The position numbers and the translations under genes are program-made. From Chloroflexota bacterium (GTDB lineage Bacteria > Chloroflexota > Dehalococcoidia > SM23-28-2 > JACOUE01), in the NCBI GenBank assembly GCA_016178045.1, contig JACOUE010000067.1, positions 1 to 56,592 of the forward strand: DNA of 56,592 bases, in the 5' to 3' direction. Position 1 is the stretch's first letter; each line of letters opens with the position of its first letter. This document shows, piece by piece, positions 22,611 through 34,373 of this stretch. The notes under the pieces are model-generated. The model was given only the letters and a program-made list of their open reading frames with translations. It ran no database searches and was not told the DNA's origin.

Positions 22611-23915
22611 CTACCCGGCTGCTCGAAGCGCCCCTCGCGCTGCCTCTACCGTCTCCTCGATGTCATCGTCGCTGTGGGCCAGGGAGACGAACATCGCCTC
22701 GAACTGCGACGGCGTCAGGAACACGCCCCGCGACAGCATCTCGCCGAAGAAGCGGGCGTAGCGCTTCGTGTCGCAGCGCCTGGCCGAGGCGTAGTCGGTC
22801 ACCGGGCGGTCGCTGAAGAACAGCGTCAGCAGGGAGCCGGCGCGGTTGACGGTGGCGGGCACCTCCGCCTCGGCGACGGCGCGGCGGAGGCCGTCCTCCA
22901 GGTAGATGCTGCTCACCTCCAGCCGCTCGTAGGCGGCGTCGTCCTGGAGGGCGCGCAGGGTAGCGATGCCGGCGGCCATGGCCAGCGGGTTGCCGGAGAG
23001 GGTCCCCGCCTGGTAGACGGGCCCCAGCGGGGCGACCATCTCCATCACCTCGCGCCTGCCGCCGTAGGCGCCGACCGGCAGCCCGCCGCCGATGACCTTG
23101 CCCAGACACGTCAGGTCCGGCTGCACCCCGAAGACGTCCTGGGCGCCCCCGTAGCGCAGGCGGAAGCCGGTAATCACCTCGTCGAAGACGAGGAGCGCGC
23201 CGGCTTCCGACGTCAGCTTGCGGAGGGCCTTGAGGAAGCCCTTCGCCGGCGTGACGACGCCCATGTTGGCCGCCACCGGCTCCACGATGACGGCCCCGAT
23301 TTCATCGGGGCGCTCCTCGAACAACTGCTCGGCGGCAGCGAGGTCGTTGTAGGGCAGCACGACCGTCTCCGTGGCGTACGACTCAGGGACACCCGGGCTG
23401 TCCGGTAGGCCCAGGGTGGCCACCCCTGAGCCCGCTTGCACCAGGAGGCCGTCGGCGTGGCCGTGGTAGCACCCCTCGAACTTCACGACCTTGCTGCGGC
23501 CGGTGAAGGCGCGGGCCAGGCGCAGGGCGGACATTGTCGCCTCGGTGCCGGAGCTGACGAAGCGCACGAGCTCGATGGAGGGGACGGCTTCGCAGATGAG
23601 CTTCGCCAGCTCGACCTCCAGCTCGGTGGTGGCCCCGTAGGCGGTGCCGCGGGCGGCCGCCCTGACGATGGTCGAGGTCACGAGAGGCTCGGCGTGGCCC
23701 AGGATGAGCGGCCCGTAGGCGCCCACGTAGTCGATGTACTCGTTGCCGTCGGCATCGTAGACGTGTGACCCCAGCCCGTAGGCGATGACGACGGGCTCCC
23801 CGCCTACGGCCTTGAAGGCGCGCACGGGGCTGGAGACGCCGCCGGGCATGTAGCGCCGGGCCTGGGCGAACAGCTCGCGGGAGCGGTCGCGCTTGGGGCG
23901 TTTCTTTTCGGCCAT
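22611..23915 (-). CDS. hemL: Glutamate-1-semialdehyde 2,1-aminomutase
   Basis: This PLP enzyme makes 5-aminolevulinate from glutamate-1-semialdehyde, the product of HemA. Family blocks are intact: [54 protein letters not shown] and the PLP-lysine loop [19 protein letters not shown] at 23915 is preferred; an in-frame GTG at 23933 lies in a palindrome of the RAYT-type REP family. It is last in the minus-strand heme cluster, separated from hemB by the GxxExxY, HAD and RAYT genes. Confidence 0.95.
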
Positions 23916-23927
23916 ACGTTGTCCGTA

Positions 23928-24015
23928 GATCACGGCCCCAGCCGTGATCGATCGATGGAGTCAAGCTTGAATTGCGGCATGTGACTATCCTCGGGTCAGG
24001 GCTGGGGGCCTGATC
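23928..24015. repeat. REPIN-like mini element made of RAYT gene ends
   Basis: A perfect hairpin (arms GATCACGGC/GCCGTGATC, 23928-23949) and a second one (arms GGTCAGG/CCTGATC, 23994-24015) flank DNA that repeats the RAYT start. On the minus strand the ATG at 23980 is followed by MPQFK, as at 24537. This looks like an internally deleted copy of the RAYT unit. Confidence 0.8.
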
Positions 24016-24040
24016 TACCGTAATTTTTTATCTTATTGTA

Positions 24041-24062
24041 GGTCACGGCCCCAGCCGTGACC
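24041..24062. repeat. REP hairpin overlapping the RAYT stop codon
   Basis: Perfect arms GGTCACGGC/GCCGTGACC enclose a CCCA loop. The last codons and TGA of the RAYT gene lie within the hairpin. Confidence 0.85.
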
Positions 24063-24537
24063 CGTCCAGCAGGTCTATTTCAAAGGGCGACTTCTCGCTG
24101 CGAGCATAAGTGCCGCAAGAGGAAAATTCATAGTCTTCAGGCAATGAGACGAGACCATCCTTGACAGGATTTAGATGAATGTAGTTCAAGGCGGCGACGA
24201 ATTGCGCCTCGTCGCGGATCACTCGATCGTAGAAGCGCGATTGCCAGATTGGGCCGCTTATTCGGAGGGCCTCCCGAATCTGTTTACCGGTGAAGCTCTT
24301 GAAGTTGCGCATGATGTCCGAGATGGAGCAACTGCCGGGCGTAATAAGCAAATGGACGTGGTCGGGCATTACCACATAACCGTGGAGCCGAAATCCCATG
24401 TGATCTCGATAGAATCGCAGGTTATCCATGATCATCTGTGACAGACGCGGGTCAGCGAAAAACGCCCGCCGCTCCTTGGTGGCGGTCGTAGCGAAGTAGC
24501 AATGGTCAGGAAGGATGTACCGTTTGAATTGCGGCAT
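24043..24537 (-). CDS. REP-associated tyrosine transposase (RAYT, Y1_Tnp)
   Basis: The 164-residue protein matches the Y1 transposase family: MPQFKRYILPDHCYFATTAT, the metal-binding HUH-type motif MPDHVHLLITPG, then SFTGKQIREA and the region IWQSRFYDRVIRDEAQFVAALNYIHLNPVKDGLV, which carries the likely catalytic tyrosine (YIHLNPV). Such enzymes nick single-stranded REP palindromes and are thought to spread them. It is bounded by two REP hairpins (24041-24062 and 24550-24572) with a mini copy beside it. It sits between hemL and a HAD gene. Confidence 0.93.
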   Translation of the reverse strand: MPQFKRYILPDHCYFATTATKERRAFFADPRLSQMIMDNLRFYRDHMGFRLHGYVVMPDHVHLLITPGSCSISDIMRNFKSFTGKQIREALRISGPIWQSRFYDRVIRDEAQFVAALNYIHLNPVKDGLVSLPEDYEFSSCGTYARSEKSPFEIDLLDGSRLGP

Positions 24538-24549
24538 CTGACCACTTTC

Positions 24550-24572
24550 GGTCAGGGCTGGGGCTCCTGACC
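24550..24572. repeat. REP hairpin upstream of the RAYT gene
   Basis: The arms GGTCAGG-GC and GC-CCTGACC pair around TGGG with a one-base bulge. The HAD gene's stop falls at its edge. Confidence 0.75.
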
Positions 24573-25310
24573 TACCCCTGATCCACAAAGGAGCGGAAGG
24601 AGCTCTTGCAAAGAAGCGACCTTCACGTCGGGCGGCGGGACGCGCCGGGGTCGGCGCAGGCGGAAGCGGTTGACCCAGGCGACCTTCAGGCCGGCCTGCC
24701 GCCCGCCCAGGAGGTCGGGCACCGGGTTGTCGCCCACGTAGAGGATGGACGAGGGCGTCAGGGCCAGGCTCGAGGCCAGGTGGCGGAAGATGGCCGGGTC
24801 CGGCTTGATGGCGCCCGCCCGCTCCGAAGAGACGACGGTGTCGAAGTGGAGGCTGTTCCGCTCCAGGCAGGCCAGGAGGAAGTCGTCGTCGGCGTTGGAG
24901 AGCAGGGCGACCCGGTACCGCGAGCGCAGGGCGTCGAGGATGTCGCGGGCCTCGGGGTAGGCGGGGGCGGTCGCCAGCTTCTCCTTCAGGTAGAGGGCGG
25001 CCTGCCAGGGGTCGCCCTCGAGGCGGAGTCGCTTGAATACGTGCTCGAACTGGCGGGCCCACGCCTCGTCGTAGCGGCTGTAGACGGGCCGTTCGTGGTT
25101 CTCGGCGCGGAAGGCGAGGGCGGCGCGGAGGAAGCGGCGCCAGAGGTCGGCGGCGTCGGCGTCGAGCCTCTGGCGGTCGCAGATCTCGGCCATGGTGGCG
25201 ATGAAGTCCGGCTGGTTGAAGTCGATGACGGTGCCGTAGCAGTCAAACGCAACGGCTCTGATATCAGCCACAGATAGACACAGATTTTTCACAGATTTGT
25301 TGGAGGACAT
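24552..25310 (-). CDS. HAD-superfamily hydrolase
   Basis: The HAD motifs are in order: nucleophile DCYGTVIDF (motif I), LLSNADDDF (motif II), Lys in AGAIKPDPAIF (motif III) and YVGDNPVPDLLGG (motif IV). This is subfamily IA, related to phosphoglycolate phosphatase-like and haloacid-dehalogenase-like enzymes; the substrate is unknown. The first 13 codons (MSSNKSVKNLCLS) derive from a CACAGAT repeat, so GTG at 25271 is an equally likely start. The last residues overlap the REP hairpin at 24550. It lies between hemB and hemL without an obvious heme role. Confidence 0.85.
   Translation of the reverse strand: MSSNKSVKNLCLSVADIRAVAFDCYGTVIDFNQPDFIATMAEICDRQRLDADAADLWRRFLRAALAFRAENHERPVYSRYDEAWARQFEHVFKRLRLEGDPWQAALYLKEKLATAPAYPEARDILDALRSRYRVALLSNADDDFLLACLERNSLHFDTVVSSERAGAIKPDPAIFRHLASSLALTPSSILYVGDNPVPDLLGGRQAGLKVAWVNRFRLRRPRRVPPPDVKVASLQELLPLLCGSGVGQEPQP
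25267..25285 (-). repeat. Inverted repeat, left end of the GxxExxY cassette
   Basis: On the minus strand this reads ATCTGTGTCTATCTGTGGC. It matches 25719-25737 on the plus strand with one mismatch, pointing outward. Confidence 0.85.
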
Positions 25311-25730
25311 CTAGAACACCAGCCGTTTGACCTCGACACGTTTCGGCCCGAAGTTCAGGAGCAGTCCTACTTTAACCCCCGTGGCCTTGTGGTGATTTAT
25401 GACCTGCGCCTCGTGAGCGCCAGATAGACTCTCCGCCGACTTGATTTCGCAGATGACCTTGTCGTCCACGAAGATATCAGCGTAGAAAAGGCCAACTGTT
25501 TGCCCTTTGTAAGCGACCGCGATTTCGGCCTGGGGCACAGCGTGAAGCCCGCGCCCGCTGAGTTCATGAACTAGTGCCGTCTCATAGACTTTCTCCAGAA
25601 AGCCAGGCCCTAGCTCGCGGTAGACCTCATAGGCACCGCCAATGATTTCCCGGGTCAAATCTTGGTGCGGGTAACGGGTTTCACTCGAAGGGGGCGGTGG
25701 GGCCAATTTCTGTGTTTTATCTGTGTCCAT
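25311..25730 (-). CDS. GxxExxY family protein
   Basis: The 139-residue protein carries GPGFLEKVYETALVHEL (the GxxExxY motif). A nuclease-like core follows, IFVDDKVICEIKSAESLSGAHEAQVINHH, with D and ExK spacing resembling PD-(D/E)xK enzymes, and it ends NFGPKRVEVKRLVF. No biochemical function is established to my knowledge. The ORF starts inside one outward-facing repeat and ends about 25 bp from the other, so the gene fills a small repeat-bounded cassette. It interrupts the heme cluster between hemB and the HAD gene. Confidence 0.88.
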   Translation of the reverse strand: MDTDKTQKLAPPPPSSETRYPHQDLTREIIGGAYEVYRELGPGFLEKVYETALVHELSGRGLHAVPQAEIAVAYKGQTVGLFYADIFVDDKVICEIKSAESLSGAHEAQVINHHKATGVKVGLLLNFGPKRVEVKRLVF

Positions 25731-25737
25731 CTGTGGC
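25719..25737 (+). repeat. Inverted repeat, right end of the GxxExxY cassette
   Basis: ATCTGTGTCCATCTGTGGC overlaps the first codons of the GxxExxY ORF, whose start codon lies inside it. Confidence 0.85.
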
Positions 25738-25754
25738 CAATCTCAAATCTACGC

Positions 25755-27295: not shown

Positions 27296-29009
27296 GGGTT
27301 CTCCCGAAATGTTGTCGTATCGCCTCCACCAAGCCGGGCACGGTGTACGCCGACGCCACCACGTCCGGCGGGCGGCCCAGCACCTCCGCCGCCGCCTTCG
27401 CCGTCACCGGGCCAATGCAGGCGATGAGCGGCTTTGCACGGCGTTCGTCCGTTGTGACACCCCCCGCGCCACTCCCCGGATCCCTTCGCGATGGTACCAC
27501 CTTCCGCGTGCCGACGCCTTCGCCGCCTGCCTGCCGGTAGGCATGGCTCAGGATGACACGGAAGTCTTCCCCCAGCAGGGCCGCCAGGTTGCGCACTGTG
27601 GACGACGAAGTGAAGGTGACGATGTCGATCTCGCCGCGGCGCAGCATCTCCAGCGCCTCCGCCGGCGCCGACCGGGGAACGGCGGACCGGTAGAGCAGGA
27701 CCTCCTCGACCTCGGCGCCCAGGGCTCGCAGCCCCTCGACCAGCTCGGGGCGGGCGCCCTCGGCCCGGGGCACCAGGACCGCGTCGTCGGGCTTGAGGTG
27801 GGGGCGCAGCGCCTCGACCGTCCCCTCGGCGATGTACTCGTCGGGGACGGCGTCGGCGGTGATGCCGCACTCGGCCAGCGCGGCGGCCGTGGCCGGGCCG
27901 ATGGCGGCGACTCTCGTCTCAGCGAAGGCGCGGGCGTCCAGCCCCCCCTCCTTGAGCGCCTCGAAAAACAGGTCGACGGCGTTGGCGCTGGTGAAGACGG
28001 CCCAGGCGAAGCCGCCGGCGCGGAGCTTTGCAATGGCGGCCCGCGTCGCCGCCGCGTCCTCCAGCGGCTCGACCTCGATGGCCGGCAGCTCGACGGGCAC
28101 GGCCCCCTCCAGGGCGAGCAGGCGGGCGAGGGCGCCGGCTTGGCGTCGAGTGCGCGTTATCAGCACGCGCTTCCCGAACAGCGGCCGGTTCTCGTACCAG
28201 GAGAGCGCCTCCCTCATGCGCACGACTTCGCCCACCACGGCGACGGTCGGCGGCGTCAGGCCCGCCTGCTCGGCCCGTTGTACGATGTCGGCCAGGGTGC
28301 CGGTCACTGTGCGCTGATCGGGGGTCGTCCCCCAGCGGACGACGGCGGCCGGCGTGTCTGGGGGCCGGCCGTTCTCCAGCAGCTTGTCGACGACGGTAGA
28401 CAGGGTCTTCGTCCCCATCAGGACGATGAGCGTATCGATCCCGGCCAGCTTGTCCCACTGGAGGGCAGGCTCGGCGGGGTCGTGGCTGGGGCCACGACCT
28501 ACGGGGCGGTGTTCTGCCTCGTGGCCGGTGATGACGGCGAAGGACGACGATAGGCCGCGGTGGGTGACGGGGATGCCGGCGTAGGCGGGAACCGCCGTGG
28601 CCGAGGTCACGCCCGGCACTACCTCGAAGGGGACGCCGGCGGCGCGCAGGGCCTGCGCCTCCTCGCCGCCGCGCCCGAAGACGAAGGGGTCGCCGCCCTT
28701 CAGGCGCACGACCCGCTTGCCCTGTTTCGCCTTCTCGACGAGCAGGCGGTTGATGGCGTCCTGGTCCCAGTGCGGGCCTCCGCCCTCCTTGCCGGCGAAG
28801 ATGAGTTCTGCGCCCGCGCGCGTCTCTTTCAGCAGCTGCGGGCTCACCAGGCGGTCGTACACCAACACATCCGCCTCGCGCAGGCGCTCGAGGCCGGCCA
28901 CGGTAATGAGGCCGGGGTCGCCGGGCCCGGCGCCCACCAGCCAGACCTTACCCTTCCCCGCCCCGCTGCCGCCGGGGTCGGGGGACGAGGGTCGGCGGTC
29001 ACGGGTCAC
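27288..29009 (-). CDS. cobA-hemD: Uroporphyrinogen-III C-methyltransferase / uroporphyrinogen-III synthase fusion
   Basis: The N-terminal half is a SUMT methylase (VWLVGAGPGDPGLITVAG, RLKGGDPFVFGRGGEEA, VPAYAGIPVTHRG), which makes precorrin-2. The C-terminal half is HemD (FGKRVLITRTRRQAGALARLL, FAWAVFTSANAVDLFF, ACIGPVTAKAA), which closes the tetrapyrrole ring. Two insertions are unusual. HRPVGRGPSHDPAEP is encoded by a perfect REP-like hairpin at 28479-28498. A stretch of about 37 residues in HemD (YRQAGGEGVGTRKVVPSRRD...) contains another palindrome at 27528-27543. Both keep the frame. It overlaps hemC by 4 bp. Confidence 0.92.
   Translation of the reverse strand: MTRDRRPSSPDPGGSGAGKGKVWLVGAGPGDPGLITVAGLERLREADVLVYDRLVSPQLLKETRAGAELIFAGKEGGGPHWDQDAINRLLVEKAKQGKRVVRLKGGDPFVFGRGGEEAQALRAAGVPFEVVPGVTSATAVPAYAGIPVTHRGLSSSFAVITGHEAEHRPVGRGPSHDPAEPALQWDKLAGIDTLIVLMGTKTLSTVVDKLLENGRPPDTPAAVVRWGTTPDQRTVTGTLADIVQRAEQAGLTPPTVAVVGEVVRMREALSWYENRPLFGKRVLITRTRRQAGALARLLALEGAVPVELPAIEVEPLEDAAATRAAIAKLRAGGFAWAVFTSANAVDLFFEALKEGGLDARAFAETRVAAIGPATAAALAECGITADAVPDEYIAEGTVEALRPHLKPDDAVLVPRAEGARPELVEGLRALGAEVEEVLLYRSAVPRSAPAEALEMLRRGEIDIVTFTSSSTVRNLAALLGEDFRVILSHAYRQAGGEGVGTRKVVPSRRDPGSGAGGVTTDERRAKPLIACIGPVTAKAAAEVLGRPPDVVASAYTVPGLVEAIRQHFGRTHV
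27528..27543. repeat. TGCCTGCCGGTAGGCA palindrome in hemD
   Basis: This is a near-perfect 16-bp palindrome of the same kind as 6112-6127 and 34455-34470. It is translated in frame as part of YRQAG. Confidence 0.75.
28479..28498. repeat. REP-like hairpin in cobA
   Basis: Perfect arms GTCGTGGC/GCCACGAC flank the loop TGGG, the same loop style as the RAYT-flanking REPs at 24041 and 24550. It is read in frame. Confidence 0.85.
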
Positions 29010-32972: not shown

Positions 32973-34373
32973 CTACTTCCGCGACGGCTCCGGGGTGACC
33001 CGCAGCTGGAACTGGTCCTTGAAACGGTAGTCCTGGCGGTGGATCAACTGGTGGTAGGAGCCGAAGCCCTCCTCTCCCTCCTCGTCCACCAGGTCCAGCG
33101 GGTCGTGGTGATCGTCCTCATTGCGGGAGAAGAGGCGGCGGATCTCGTAGGTGGTGGTGCGCTCGGCGGGCACGCGGCCGATGTCGCGGATCAGGCGGCG
33201 CATCTCGCGGGGCTTGAGGCGCTGGCCGTAGGCGGCCCCGGCGGCGGTGGAGATGGACTCGTTGATTAGGGTGCCCATGAAGTCGTTGCAGCCGACGTTG
33301 AGGCACACCTGGGCCAGCTTCGGCCCCTCCTTGACCCACGACACCTGGAGGTTGGGGATCCAGCTGTTGAGCATGATGCGGGAGACGGCGTACATCTTCA
33401 CCACTTCCGCCCCGGTAGCGCCGGTACGGACGTCGGCTACGAACCCCTTCTTGTACATGGGCGCTTCCTCGAAAATGAAGGACAGTGGTACGAACTCGGT
33501 GAAGCCGCCCGTCTGGCGCTGGAGGTCGCGCAGGAGGGCGATGTGGGCCGCCTTGTGCCGGCTGTTCTCGACGTGGCCGTACATGATGGTGGAGGTGGTG
33601 GGGATGCCCAGCCGGTGCGCGGTGGTGATCACCTCTACCCACTGGGCGGTGGTGATCCGCCCCGGCGATATCAGGTTCCGCACCTCATCGTCGAGGATCT
33701 CGGCGGAGGTGCCGGGGAGGGAGCCGACGCCGGCGTCCTTGAGAGCGCGCAGGTACTCCTCGATGGAGCAGCGGGCGCGGACGGAGCCGTAGAGCACCTC
33801 CTCGGGCGAGAAGCCGTGGATGTGGATGTCGGGCAGCTCCTTCTTGATGGCGCGGGTGAGATCGACGTAGAAGTAGCCGTCCATCTTGGGCGGGAGGCCG
33901 GCCTGGATGCAGACCTCCGTGGCGCCCAGGTCCCAGGCCTCGCGGGCCCGGCGGACCACTTCCTCGATGGGCAGGAAGTAGCCCTCCTCCTCGCGATGGT
34001 CGCGGGAGAAGGCGCAGAAGCCGCAGTGCTTGATGCAGACGTTGGTGAAGTTGATGTTGCGGTTGAGGATGTAGGTGACGACGTCGCCGACGGAGCGGCG
34101 GCGCAGCTCGTCGGCGACGATGACCAGGGCGTTGAGCTCGAGCCCCTCGGCGTCGAAGAGGCGGGTGGCCTCTTCCACCGTGACGTCTTCGCCGGCGAGG
34201 GCGCGGTCCAGGGTGCGGGCCACGTCCCGGTCGATCAGGGAGAGGAGGCGGGGCCAGATGGAGTGGAGGTTGGAGGTTTGGGACTGTCGGATGCCCCAGG
34301 CTTCAGCCTGGGGTTTTGTATTCTCCCCACCCCAGCCTGAAGGCTCGGGCATCGAGTGATTCTTTGCTACCAT
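32973..34373 (-). CDS. cofH: FO synthase subunit 2 (CofH)
   Basis: This radical SAM enzyme couples tyrosine to the ribityl-uracil intermediate in F420 precursor (FO) synthesis. Cysteines 113, 117 and 120 in NVCIKHCGFC bind the iron-sulfur cluster. CofH-type blocks follow (VCIQAGLPPKMDGYFY, HIHGFSPEE, GSLPGTSAEIL). The start ATG overlaps the cofG stop by 7 bp, so the N-terminus is fixed by coupling. However, residues 8-26 (MPEPSGWGGENTKPQAEAW) are encoded by a pair of REP-like hairpins inserted just after the start. The partner cofG is immediately upstream. Confidence 0.95.
   Translation of the reverse strand: MVAKNHSMPEPSGWGGENTKPQAEAWGIRQSQTSNLHSIWPRLLSLIDRDVARTLDRALAGEDVTVEEATRLFDAEGLELNALVIVADELRRRSVGDVVTYILNRNINFTNVCIKHCGFCAFSRDHREEEGYFLPIEEVVRRAREAWDLGATEVCIQAGLPPKMDGYFYVDLTRAIKKELPDIHIHGFSPEEVLYGSVRARCSIEEYLRALKDAGVGSLPGTSAEILDDEVRNLISPGRITTAQWVEVITTAHRLGIPTTSTIMYGHVENSRHKAAHIALLRDLQRQTGGFTEFVPLSFIFEEAPMYKKGFVADVRTGATGAEVVKMYAVSRIMLNSWIPNLQVSWVKEGPKLAQVCLNVGCNDFMGTLINESISTAAGAAYGQRLKPREMRRLIRDIGRVPAERTTTYEIRRLFSRNEDDHHDPLDLVDEEGEEGFGSYHQLIHRQDYRFKDQFQLRVTPEPSRK
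34294..34349. repeat. Two REP-like hairpins in the 5' end of cofH
   Basis: The first has perfect arms CCCCAGGCT/AGCCTGGGG (34294-34313). The second has arms CCCCAGCCT/AGGCTCGGG with one mismatch (34330-34349). GATGCC and GGCATC flank the pair in inverted order, so the whole forms a REPIN-like unit. Confidence 0.85.

Follow-up and report, generated by a model that had tools for sequence, protein, structure and literature searches.

A REPtron in a Chloroflexota genome with an apparent internally deleted copy of its RAYT gene alongside

PMC3733652 describes REPs with a GTAG tag, intragenic REPs, REP dimers and the arrangement known as a REPtron, and PMC8266576 reports GTAG-dependent cleavage at CT dinucleotides. 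Pseudogenised RAYTs and RAYTs at shared positions are mentioned in PMC3686654. The origin of REPINs, elements composed of two inverted REPs and running from GTAG to CTAC (Bertels and Rainey 2011), is an open question; the proposal made in 2011 traces them to REPs at the flanks of an ancestral IS200-like element (PMC3116915). In the portions of the open literature that we searched, PMC2817692 and PMC3686654 among them, we found no description of internally deleted RAYT copies that keep both ends.

The window, that is, the whole stretch of 56,592 nucleotides analysed here, comes from a 2.0-Mb draft genome of a Chloroflexota bacterium (G000; other G numbers denote compared genomes, which are fragmented drafts, and L numbers denote loci). 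It contains a RAYT gene with the following surroundings:

24043..24537, minus strand: RAYT (TnpA-REP) gene, 164 aa plus stop, assigned by family models, alignment to 4er8 and dN/dS
24550..24575, minus strand: 5′ REP of the RAYT unit, with GTAG tag, CAGG-type stem, one-base bulge and CCCA loop
24038..24062, plus strand: 3′ REP of the RAYT unit, with GTAG tag on the plus strand, CACGG-type stem and CCCA loop
22611..23933, minus strand: hemL, downstream neighbour of the RAYT gene
24552..25310, minus strand: HAD-family hydrolase gene, upstream neighbour, overlapping the 5′ REP

We analysed the family membership of the encoded protein. It scored 132.3 bits against the NCBIfam model REP_Tyr_transpos (NF047646; cut-off 80), which places it within a curated family, and it matched Pfam Y1_Tnp (2.4e-12); its score against NCBIfam transpos_IS200 was 36.7 bits, below the cut-off of 55 for that model. 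In the alignment to the solved E. coli TnpA-REP (4er8; E 6.7e-13) the HUH motif DHVHLL falls on EHMHCI, with the histidines conserved, and Y119 falls on Y115, which marks Y119 as the putative catalytic tyrosine (Y115F is named as a catalytic mutant of TnpA-REP in PMC8266576). The gene is under constraint between G000 and G011: the comparison with the G011 orthologue gave a dN of 0.20 and a dS of 1.5–1.7, with differences at 48% of third and 15% of second codon positions.

Read along the gene, the unit has the form GTAG-hairpin, gene, hairpin-CTAC, the 3′ REP being inverted relative to the 5′ REP, and the stop codon of the gene lies inside the 3′ hairpin. We could confirm the first-pass annotation in placing the gene between REP hairpins with a TGGG/CCCA loop, a loop found in 10 of the 14 REP copies of the genome. 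For the core of the 3′ REP, TCACGGCTGGGGCCGTGA, there are two exact matches, at 23930 and 24043, and a third at 23996 that differs in 3 positions, against 0.09 matches expected. The order on the minus strand is HAD-family gene, RAYT, mini element (described below), hemL; the longest ORF of hemL begins within the mini element, the ATG at 23915 being the likelier start. The window RAYT is the one full-length gene for its REP type, and its flanking REPs belong to a family dispersed in the genome. The other RAYTs of G000 are at most 38% identical to it, and the two nearest have different flanking hairpins. Two further RAYT genes with hairpin families of their own lie at L002:1360-2160 (C22 of G000) and L003 (C65 of G000), the former having GTAG-tagged REP dimers on both sides with a spacer of about 20 nt.

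We compared the HAD-hemL locus in relatives. The survey covered 22 loci (G005, G017 and G020 gave no usable hemL locus), of which three carry the RAYT unit: that of the window and those of G011 and G023, two other families in which the unit sits at the same HAD-hemL place. At 15 of the 22 loci the HAD gene abuts hemL (gap −7 to 68 nt); no RAYT relic was seen in the HAD-hemL junctions displayed, and a HAD gene was not detected at 4 of the 22 loci, one of which (G013) begins at a contig end. The RAYT is 70% identical between G000 and G011 and 56–57% between G000 and G023, the HAD gene 55 and 71%, and hemL 75% for both pairs; the HAD identities thus pointed to transfer of the RAYT and the hemL identities did not. 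It is possible, though somewhat doubtful, that the unit was inserted independently at this junction, as a preferred site, in more than one lineage, as opposed to being inherited and then lost. The abutment of HAD and hemL in 15 relatives would fit independent insertion, as would the missing unit in the closest relatives of G023 by HAD (G003, G006, G019 and G021), and the RAYT identities, which run opposite to those of HAD. However, hemL is equally distant in both pairs, three taxa cannot tell a change of rate from transfer, and clean loss through excision is possible in this enzyme class. That a whole RAYT unit is cleanly present or absent at one intergenic site across the order is relevant to the idea that REPtrons are immobile as units.

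REPs were searched for with a 25-nt pattern, allowing up to three mismatches, and with the reversed pattern as a control. In G000 this gave 13 matches against 0 for the control, and addition of the bulged 5′ REP brings the number to 14. The REPs have a stem of nine pairs, and their loops group as CCCA/TGGG (10), CCTA (3) and CGCA (1). Outside the window they form four head-to-head dimers, nearly spacerless, and one single copy on C20; as an inverted pair of REPs repeated at several sites, the four dispersed dimers qualify as REPINs. The dispersed REPs, sharing tag, loop and most of the stem with the RAYT flanks, are not of the unrelated kind that the first-pass annotation had named as a refutation. 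Among 32 distinct REPs from G000, G011 and G023, 97.6% of the stem cells pair and 38 cells have changed on both sides. The covariation score was 0.394, compared with 0.132 for shuffled stems (0 of 500 as high) and at most 0.138 when the stem was slid, so that the stem pairs co-vary strongly.

At least one REP match was found in 35 of the 61 genomes of the class (that of the window included), mostly at the low level of the controls. G011 had 54 matches, G015 20 (mostly with a GTGG tag), G000 13, G023 9 and the others at most 4. A RAYT at least 56% identical to that of the window occurs only in G000, G011 and G023 among the 61 genomes. The REPs accompany this RAYT, as judged from these three genomes against the other 58, with the exception of G015.

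Two further hairpin sites in the window had been noticed on first pass, one in cobA (28479) and possibly one in cofH (34294):

28478..28502, minus strand: single REP in cobA (part of a cobA-hemD fusion), an exact member of the family with the CTAC tag
34290..34353, no strand assigned: inverted palindrome pair outside the RAYT system, of ATGCCCCAGCCTTCAGGCTGGGG type, without the GTAG tag

The first was borne out. At the REP, cobA of G000 has ten extra residues with the reading frame kept, and the insert is missing from 18 of 20 orthologue loci (10 extra residues in G000, 9 in G022), which shows that these REPs insert at new sites. In G022 (L167) the insert in the same CobA loop is another palindrome, CCCCTCTC...GAGAGGGG, so that two unrelated palindromes have been accommodated here. 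The second site did not hold: the hairpins at 34290-34353 were rejected as REP members, since the GTAG tag is missing and their sequence is that of a different repeat family, which has several further matches elsewhere in G000. The pair occupies the initial codons of a 466-aa ORF (cofH according to the first-pass annotation), and may be an N-terminal extension of this ORF or reflect a wrong start.

Next to the RAYT gene lies a short element with the following parts:

23925..24019, minus strand: mini-RAYT, the RAYT unit without its interior; both end REPs, the leader and the first codons are kept
23994..24018, minus strand: left REP of the mini, from the REP pattern search
23925..23949, plus strand: right REP of the mini, from the REP pattern search and stem comparison
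23930..23980, minus strand: residual mini frame of 16 codons, MPQFK...SRLGP-stop, read from the sequence

It had been described as an 88-bp unit with the MPQFK start and a terminal hairpin but without the interior, all of which stands except the length, which is 95 bp (GTAG to CTAC plus one base). The left 53 nt are 83% identical to the RAYT start region (genome-wide E 9e-8), with 14 bases at the gene start the same in both, and the right 23 nt are 96% identical to the RAYT 3′ REP; between the hairpins, the interior of about 45 nt is mostly RAYT leader and start codons. The mini stays in frame into SRLGP-stop, as in the RAYT. In its right REP the outer stem pair has changed from G-C to A-T, and since both sides changed, the hairpin has been kept. 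Folded alone as DNA, the mini is stabler than its shuffles (z −4.3), as expected of any inverted pair of hairpins. Like a MITE, it keeps both ends of its parent and has lost the interior. However, the full element has one copy in G000, the remaining matches being the RAYT start region and single REPs, so that it is not a dispersed population as REPINs are; nor was mobilisation to unlinked sites seen in the G000 genome or, likewise, in G223. Derivation of the mini from the RAYT unit through loss of the interior is, on the sequence homologies, well supported. Plain tandem duplication does not account for all of it, because a 19-nt AT-rich stretch, foreign to the RAYT unit, separates the RAYT 3′ REP from the mini. 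As both ends have diverged, the event is old and its junction blurred.

We asked how often such repeats occur at the edges of RAYT genes. The survey took in 139 loci, a mixture of contigs similar to the window RAYT and better-scoring matches from a class-wide search; 135 had a RAYT ORF and 123 were left after removal of duplicates. At 40 survey loci a repeat overlapped the RAYT ORF by at least 12 nt, and most of these look like REPs in or over the gene; L025, L035, L273, L293, L001 and L039 were inspected closely. Minis with both RAYT edges were found at 3 of the 123 loci, in three families (G000, G011 and G223). This number is a minimum because L280, L265, L253, L055 and L002 are ambiguous, mainly owing to an ORF call that runs upstream of the likely start or over a neighbour. 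There are four minis in all, every one adjacent to a RAYT and in direct orientation.

In G011 the mini lies directly downstream of the RAYT, starting right after the CTAC of its 3′ REP. It opens with 27 nt identical to the leader and the gene as far as its 12th nt, and continues with two copies of the gene tail, one of 55 nt (95%) and one of 87 nt (98%) that takes in the 3′ REP; it has no left hairpin of its own. G223, from another family, has two elements of about 100 bp, one on each side of a different RAYT, both made up of the two hairpins with the leader and 22 nt from the gene start between them. Their left parts are 87 and 91% identical to the RAYT unit over 71 and 74 nt, and the joint and the right-hairpin variant are common to both, so that a mini can be copied, upstream as well as downstream of the gene. 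A search of G223 and four relatives gave no other instance of the full G223 mini. The retained left part ends 14 (G000), 12 (G011) and 22 nt (G223) past the start codon, a striking likeness to which no probability is attached, the cases having been picked for their resemblance to the G000 mini.

Three more loci have repeats, of the gene tail (L293 and L035) or of a degenerate interior stretch (L025). At L025 (3196-3349 and 3470-3731), a Clostridiales RAYT, there is a REP pair within the reading frame, and a degenerate, REP-flanked partial copy of the gene follows. REPs also appear to lie within the ORF of several other RAYTs, for example L027, L030, L035, L057 and L064. In the window, a small ORF at 25311-25730, which we take to resemble GxxExxY proteins, lies between 37-nt inverted repeats with CATCTGTGG-like sequence (25259-25745). 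In G023 an apparent C-terminal tail of a GxxExxY-like ORF is found in tandem, with similar flanking repeats (L040:457-627); an unrelated gene thus shows something comparable to the tail copies of the RAYT.

The anatomy of the locus, the homology of the mini ends, the constraint on the RAYT, the paired stem changes and the dispersed REP and REPIN copies are observed. As a whole they are probably best explained by a REPtron composed of a domesticated single-strand transposase gene, inverted GTAG-tagged REPs and a locally formed, internally deleted copy. The RAYT protein would nick single-stranded REPs beside the GTAG tag and spread REPs and REPINs in trans. The mini would have formed in place: slippage or unequal exchange between the palindromic ends of the RAYT unit, which are nearly identical, would have duplicated the unit, and the copy would afterwards have lost its interior. 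A local origin is suggested because the four minis are all adjacent and direct, and no other copy exists in G000 or G223. The mini may now be an inert by-product, or it may serve as a non-autonomous substrate; presumably the dispersed REPINs of today do not stem from it. The evidence supports local collapse of RAYT units to REPIN-like minis; that minis became the REPINs is not yet supported. We thus regard the mini as a local internal-deletion derivative, one that is plausible as an intermediate, though not proven as an ancestor, of REPINs. Deleted copies beside intact RAYT genes, constrained where this can be tested, make the 2011 proposal testable with respect to spontaneous formation of minis, action of the RAYT on them, and their spread.

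The first-pass annotation had gone further and seen a plausible origin of REPINs in the RAYT gene itself. What stands of this is that the mini is a RAYT derivative from which the interior was lost and that such elements recur in two other families. The step to REPINs is not yet supported, as the minis of G000 and G223 were found only beside a RAYT and the tested spacers have no significant RAYT sequence. That the mini is the kind of intermediate that gave REPINs, by deletion of the interior followed by loss of the spacer to a 50-bp REPIN which the RAYT then spreads, seems to us rather unlikely. It draws on a size series in G000, from the RAYT unit (about 540 bp) through the mini (95 bp) to the REPIN (about 50 bp), each of the form GTAG-hairpin...hairpin-CTAC, and on the two kinds of REPIN arm in G011. 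The search for REPIN pairs in relatives found 2 in G023 and 17 in G011, the arms of dispersed REPINs being spaced by 1–17 nt. Each of the 17 pairs of G011 combines a GGC-type arm, whose loop is variable (CCCA in 6 of 17), with a GTC-type arm (one degenerate), whose loop is near-constant (CCCA in 15 of 17). The ends of RAYT units show a parallel pattern of loop variability, with CCCA, CCTA and CCCT on the left and CCCA three times on the right. However, the 17 pairs look like copies of one element and are thus not independent, the commonest arms in G000 (GGTCGAGGC and GGGCAGGGC) differ from those of the mini, G023 has near-identical REPINs with no mini at its RAYT, and no significant RAYT sequence was found in the tested spacers (12 distinct from G011, one from G223).

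The spacer candidates themselves were as follows. The 17-nt spacers of G011 resemble the RAYT start (best 12/17), a likeness rejected by shuffling: for the 12 distinct spacers (two shorter ones, L111 and L188, were left out), 387 of 2000 column shuffles were as good against the whole RAYT unit and 265 of 2000 against its first 40 nt. RAYT sequence in one G223 REPIN spacer was likewise rejected, as 787 and 813 of 5000 shuffles matched the G223 minis equally well. Most of the G011 REPINs are embedded in a longer repeat, some 118 bp in length, whose outer arms are of GTAGCGTTCCGTTTGTTCATGAT ... GTCATGAATCGGCGAGACGCTAC type (loci L108-L117, L185-L188, L191, L193 and L203), as if built into a second, outer inverted-repeat element.

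A broader form, in which RAYT units give rise to mini-RAYTs repeatedly and these are the missing link to REPINs, is in our judgement unlikely. Read in this way, the left part ends 12–22 nt past the start codon as if the functional left end reached into the first codons. If it were true, RAYT units would collapse time and again, giving rise to new REPINs next to the very gene by which they are later mobilised.

It is improbable, to our mind, that the mini was made by transposition, the RAYT cutting and joining the ends of its own unit, or a REPIN inserting nearby and capturing the leader. The ends of the G000 mini do coincide with the GTAG and CTAC tags, and the G011 downstream copy begins directly behind the CTAC of the RAYT 3′ REP, but random insertion would not favour four minis that are all direct and adjacent, and REPtrons are described in PMC6006769 as apparently not moving as a unit. 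Chance juxtaposition of two REPs around unrelated sequence, although inverted REP pairs are common in REP-bearing genomes, is highly improbable and already contradicted by homology that extends about 28 nt past the left hairpin and takes in the 14 bases shared with the RAYT start (genome-wide E 9e-8), and by recurrence of the architecture in G011 and G223.

The REPtron with a locally formed, internally deleted copy, the account that we prefer, can be set against known systems. As a REPtron it is ordinary, and the recurrent mini-RAYTs are new in that they are undescribed in the open literature searched, so far as it was accessible. As in the REPtron/RAYT systems of E. coli, Stenotrophomonas and Pseudomonas, there are a Y1 HUH gene with inverted, GTAG-tagged hairpin flanks, dispersed REPs, head-to-head dimers and a single gene per REP type. 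The present system differs from these in its few REPs (14 in a 2.0-Mb draft), its nine-pair stem with a CCCA loop and the internally deleted RAYT copy adjoining the gene. The dispersed dimers fit the description of REPINs, whereas the mini has its interior of RAYT leader and start codons and is single-copy. With IS200/IS605 the window RAYT unit has in common a related transposase and hairpin ends; in contrast to those elements, it falls under the RAYT model, is present in a single copy and has inverted, tagged palindromes at both ends. Finally, the mini resembles the MITEs of insertion sequences in being an internal-deletion derivative that keeps both ends of an autonomous element and, unlike them, is not dispersed but adjoins its parent in the same direction.
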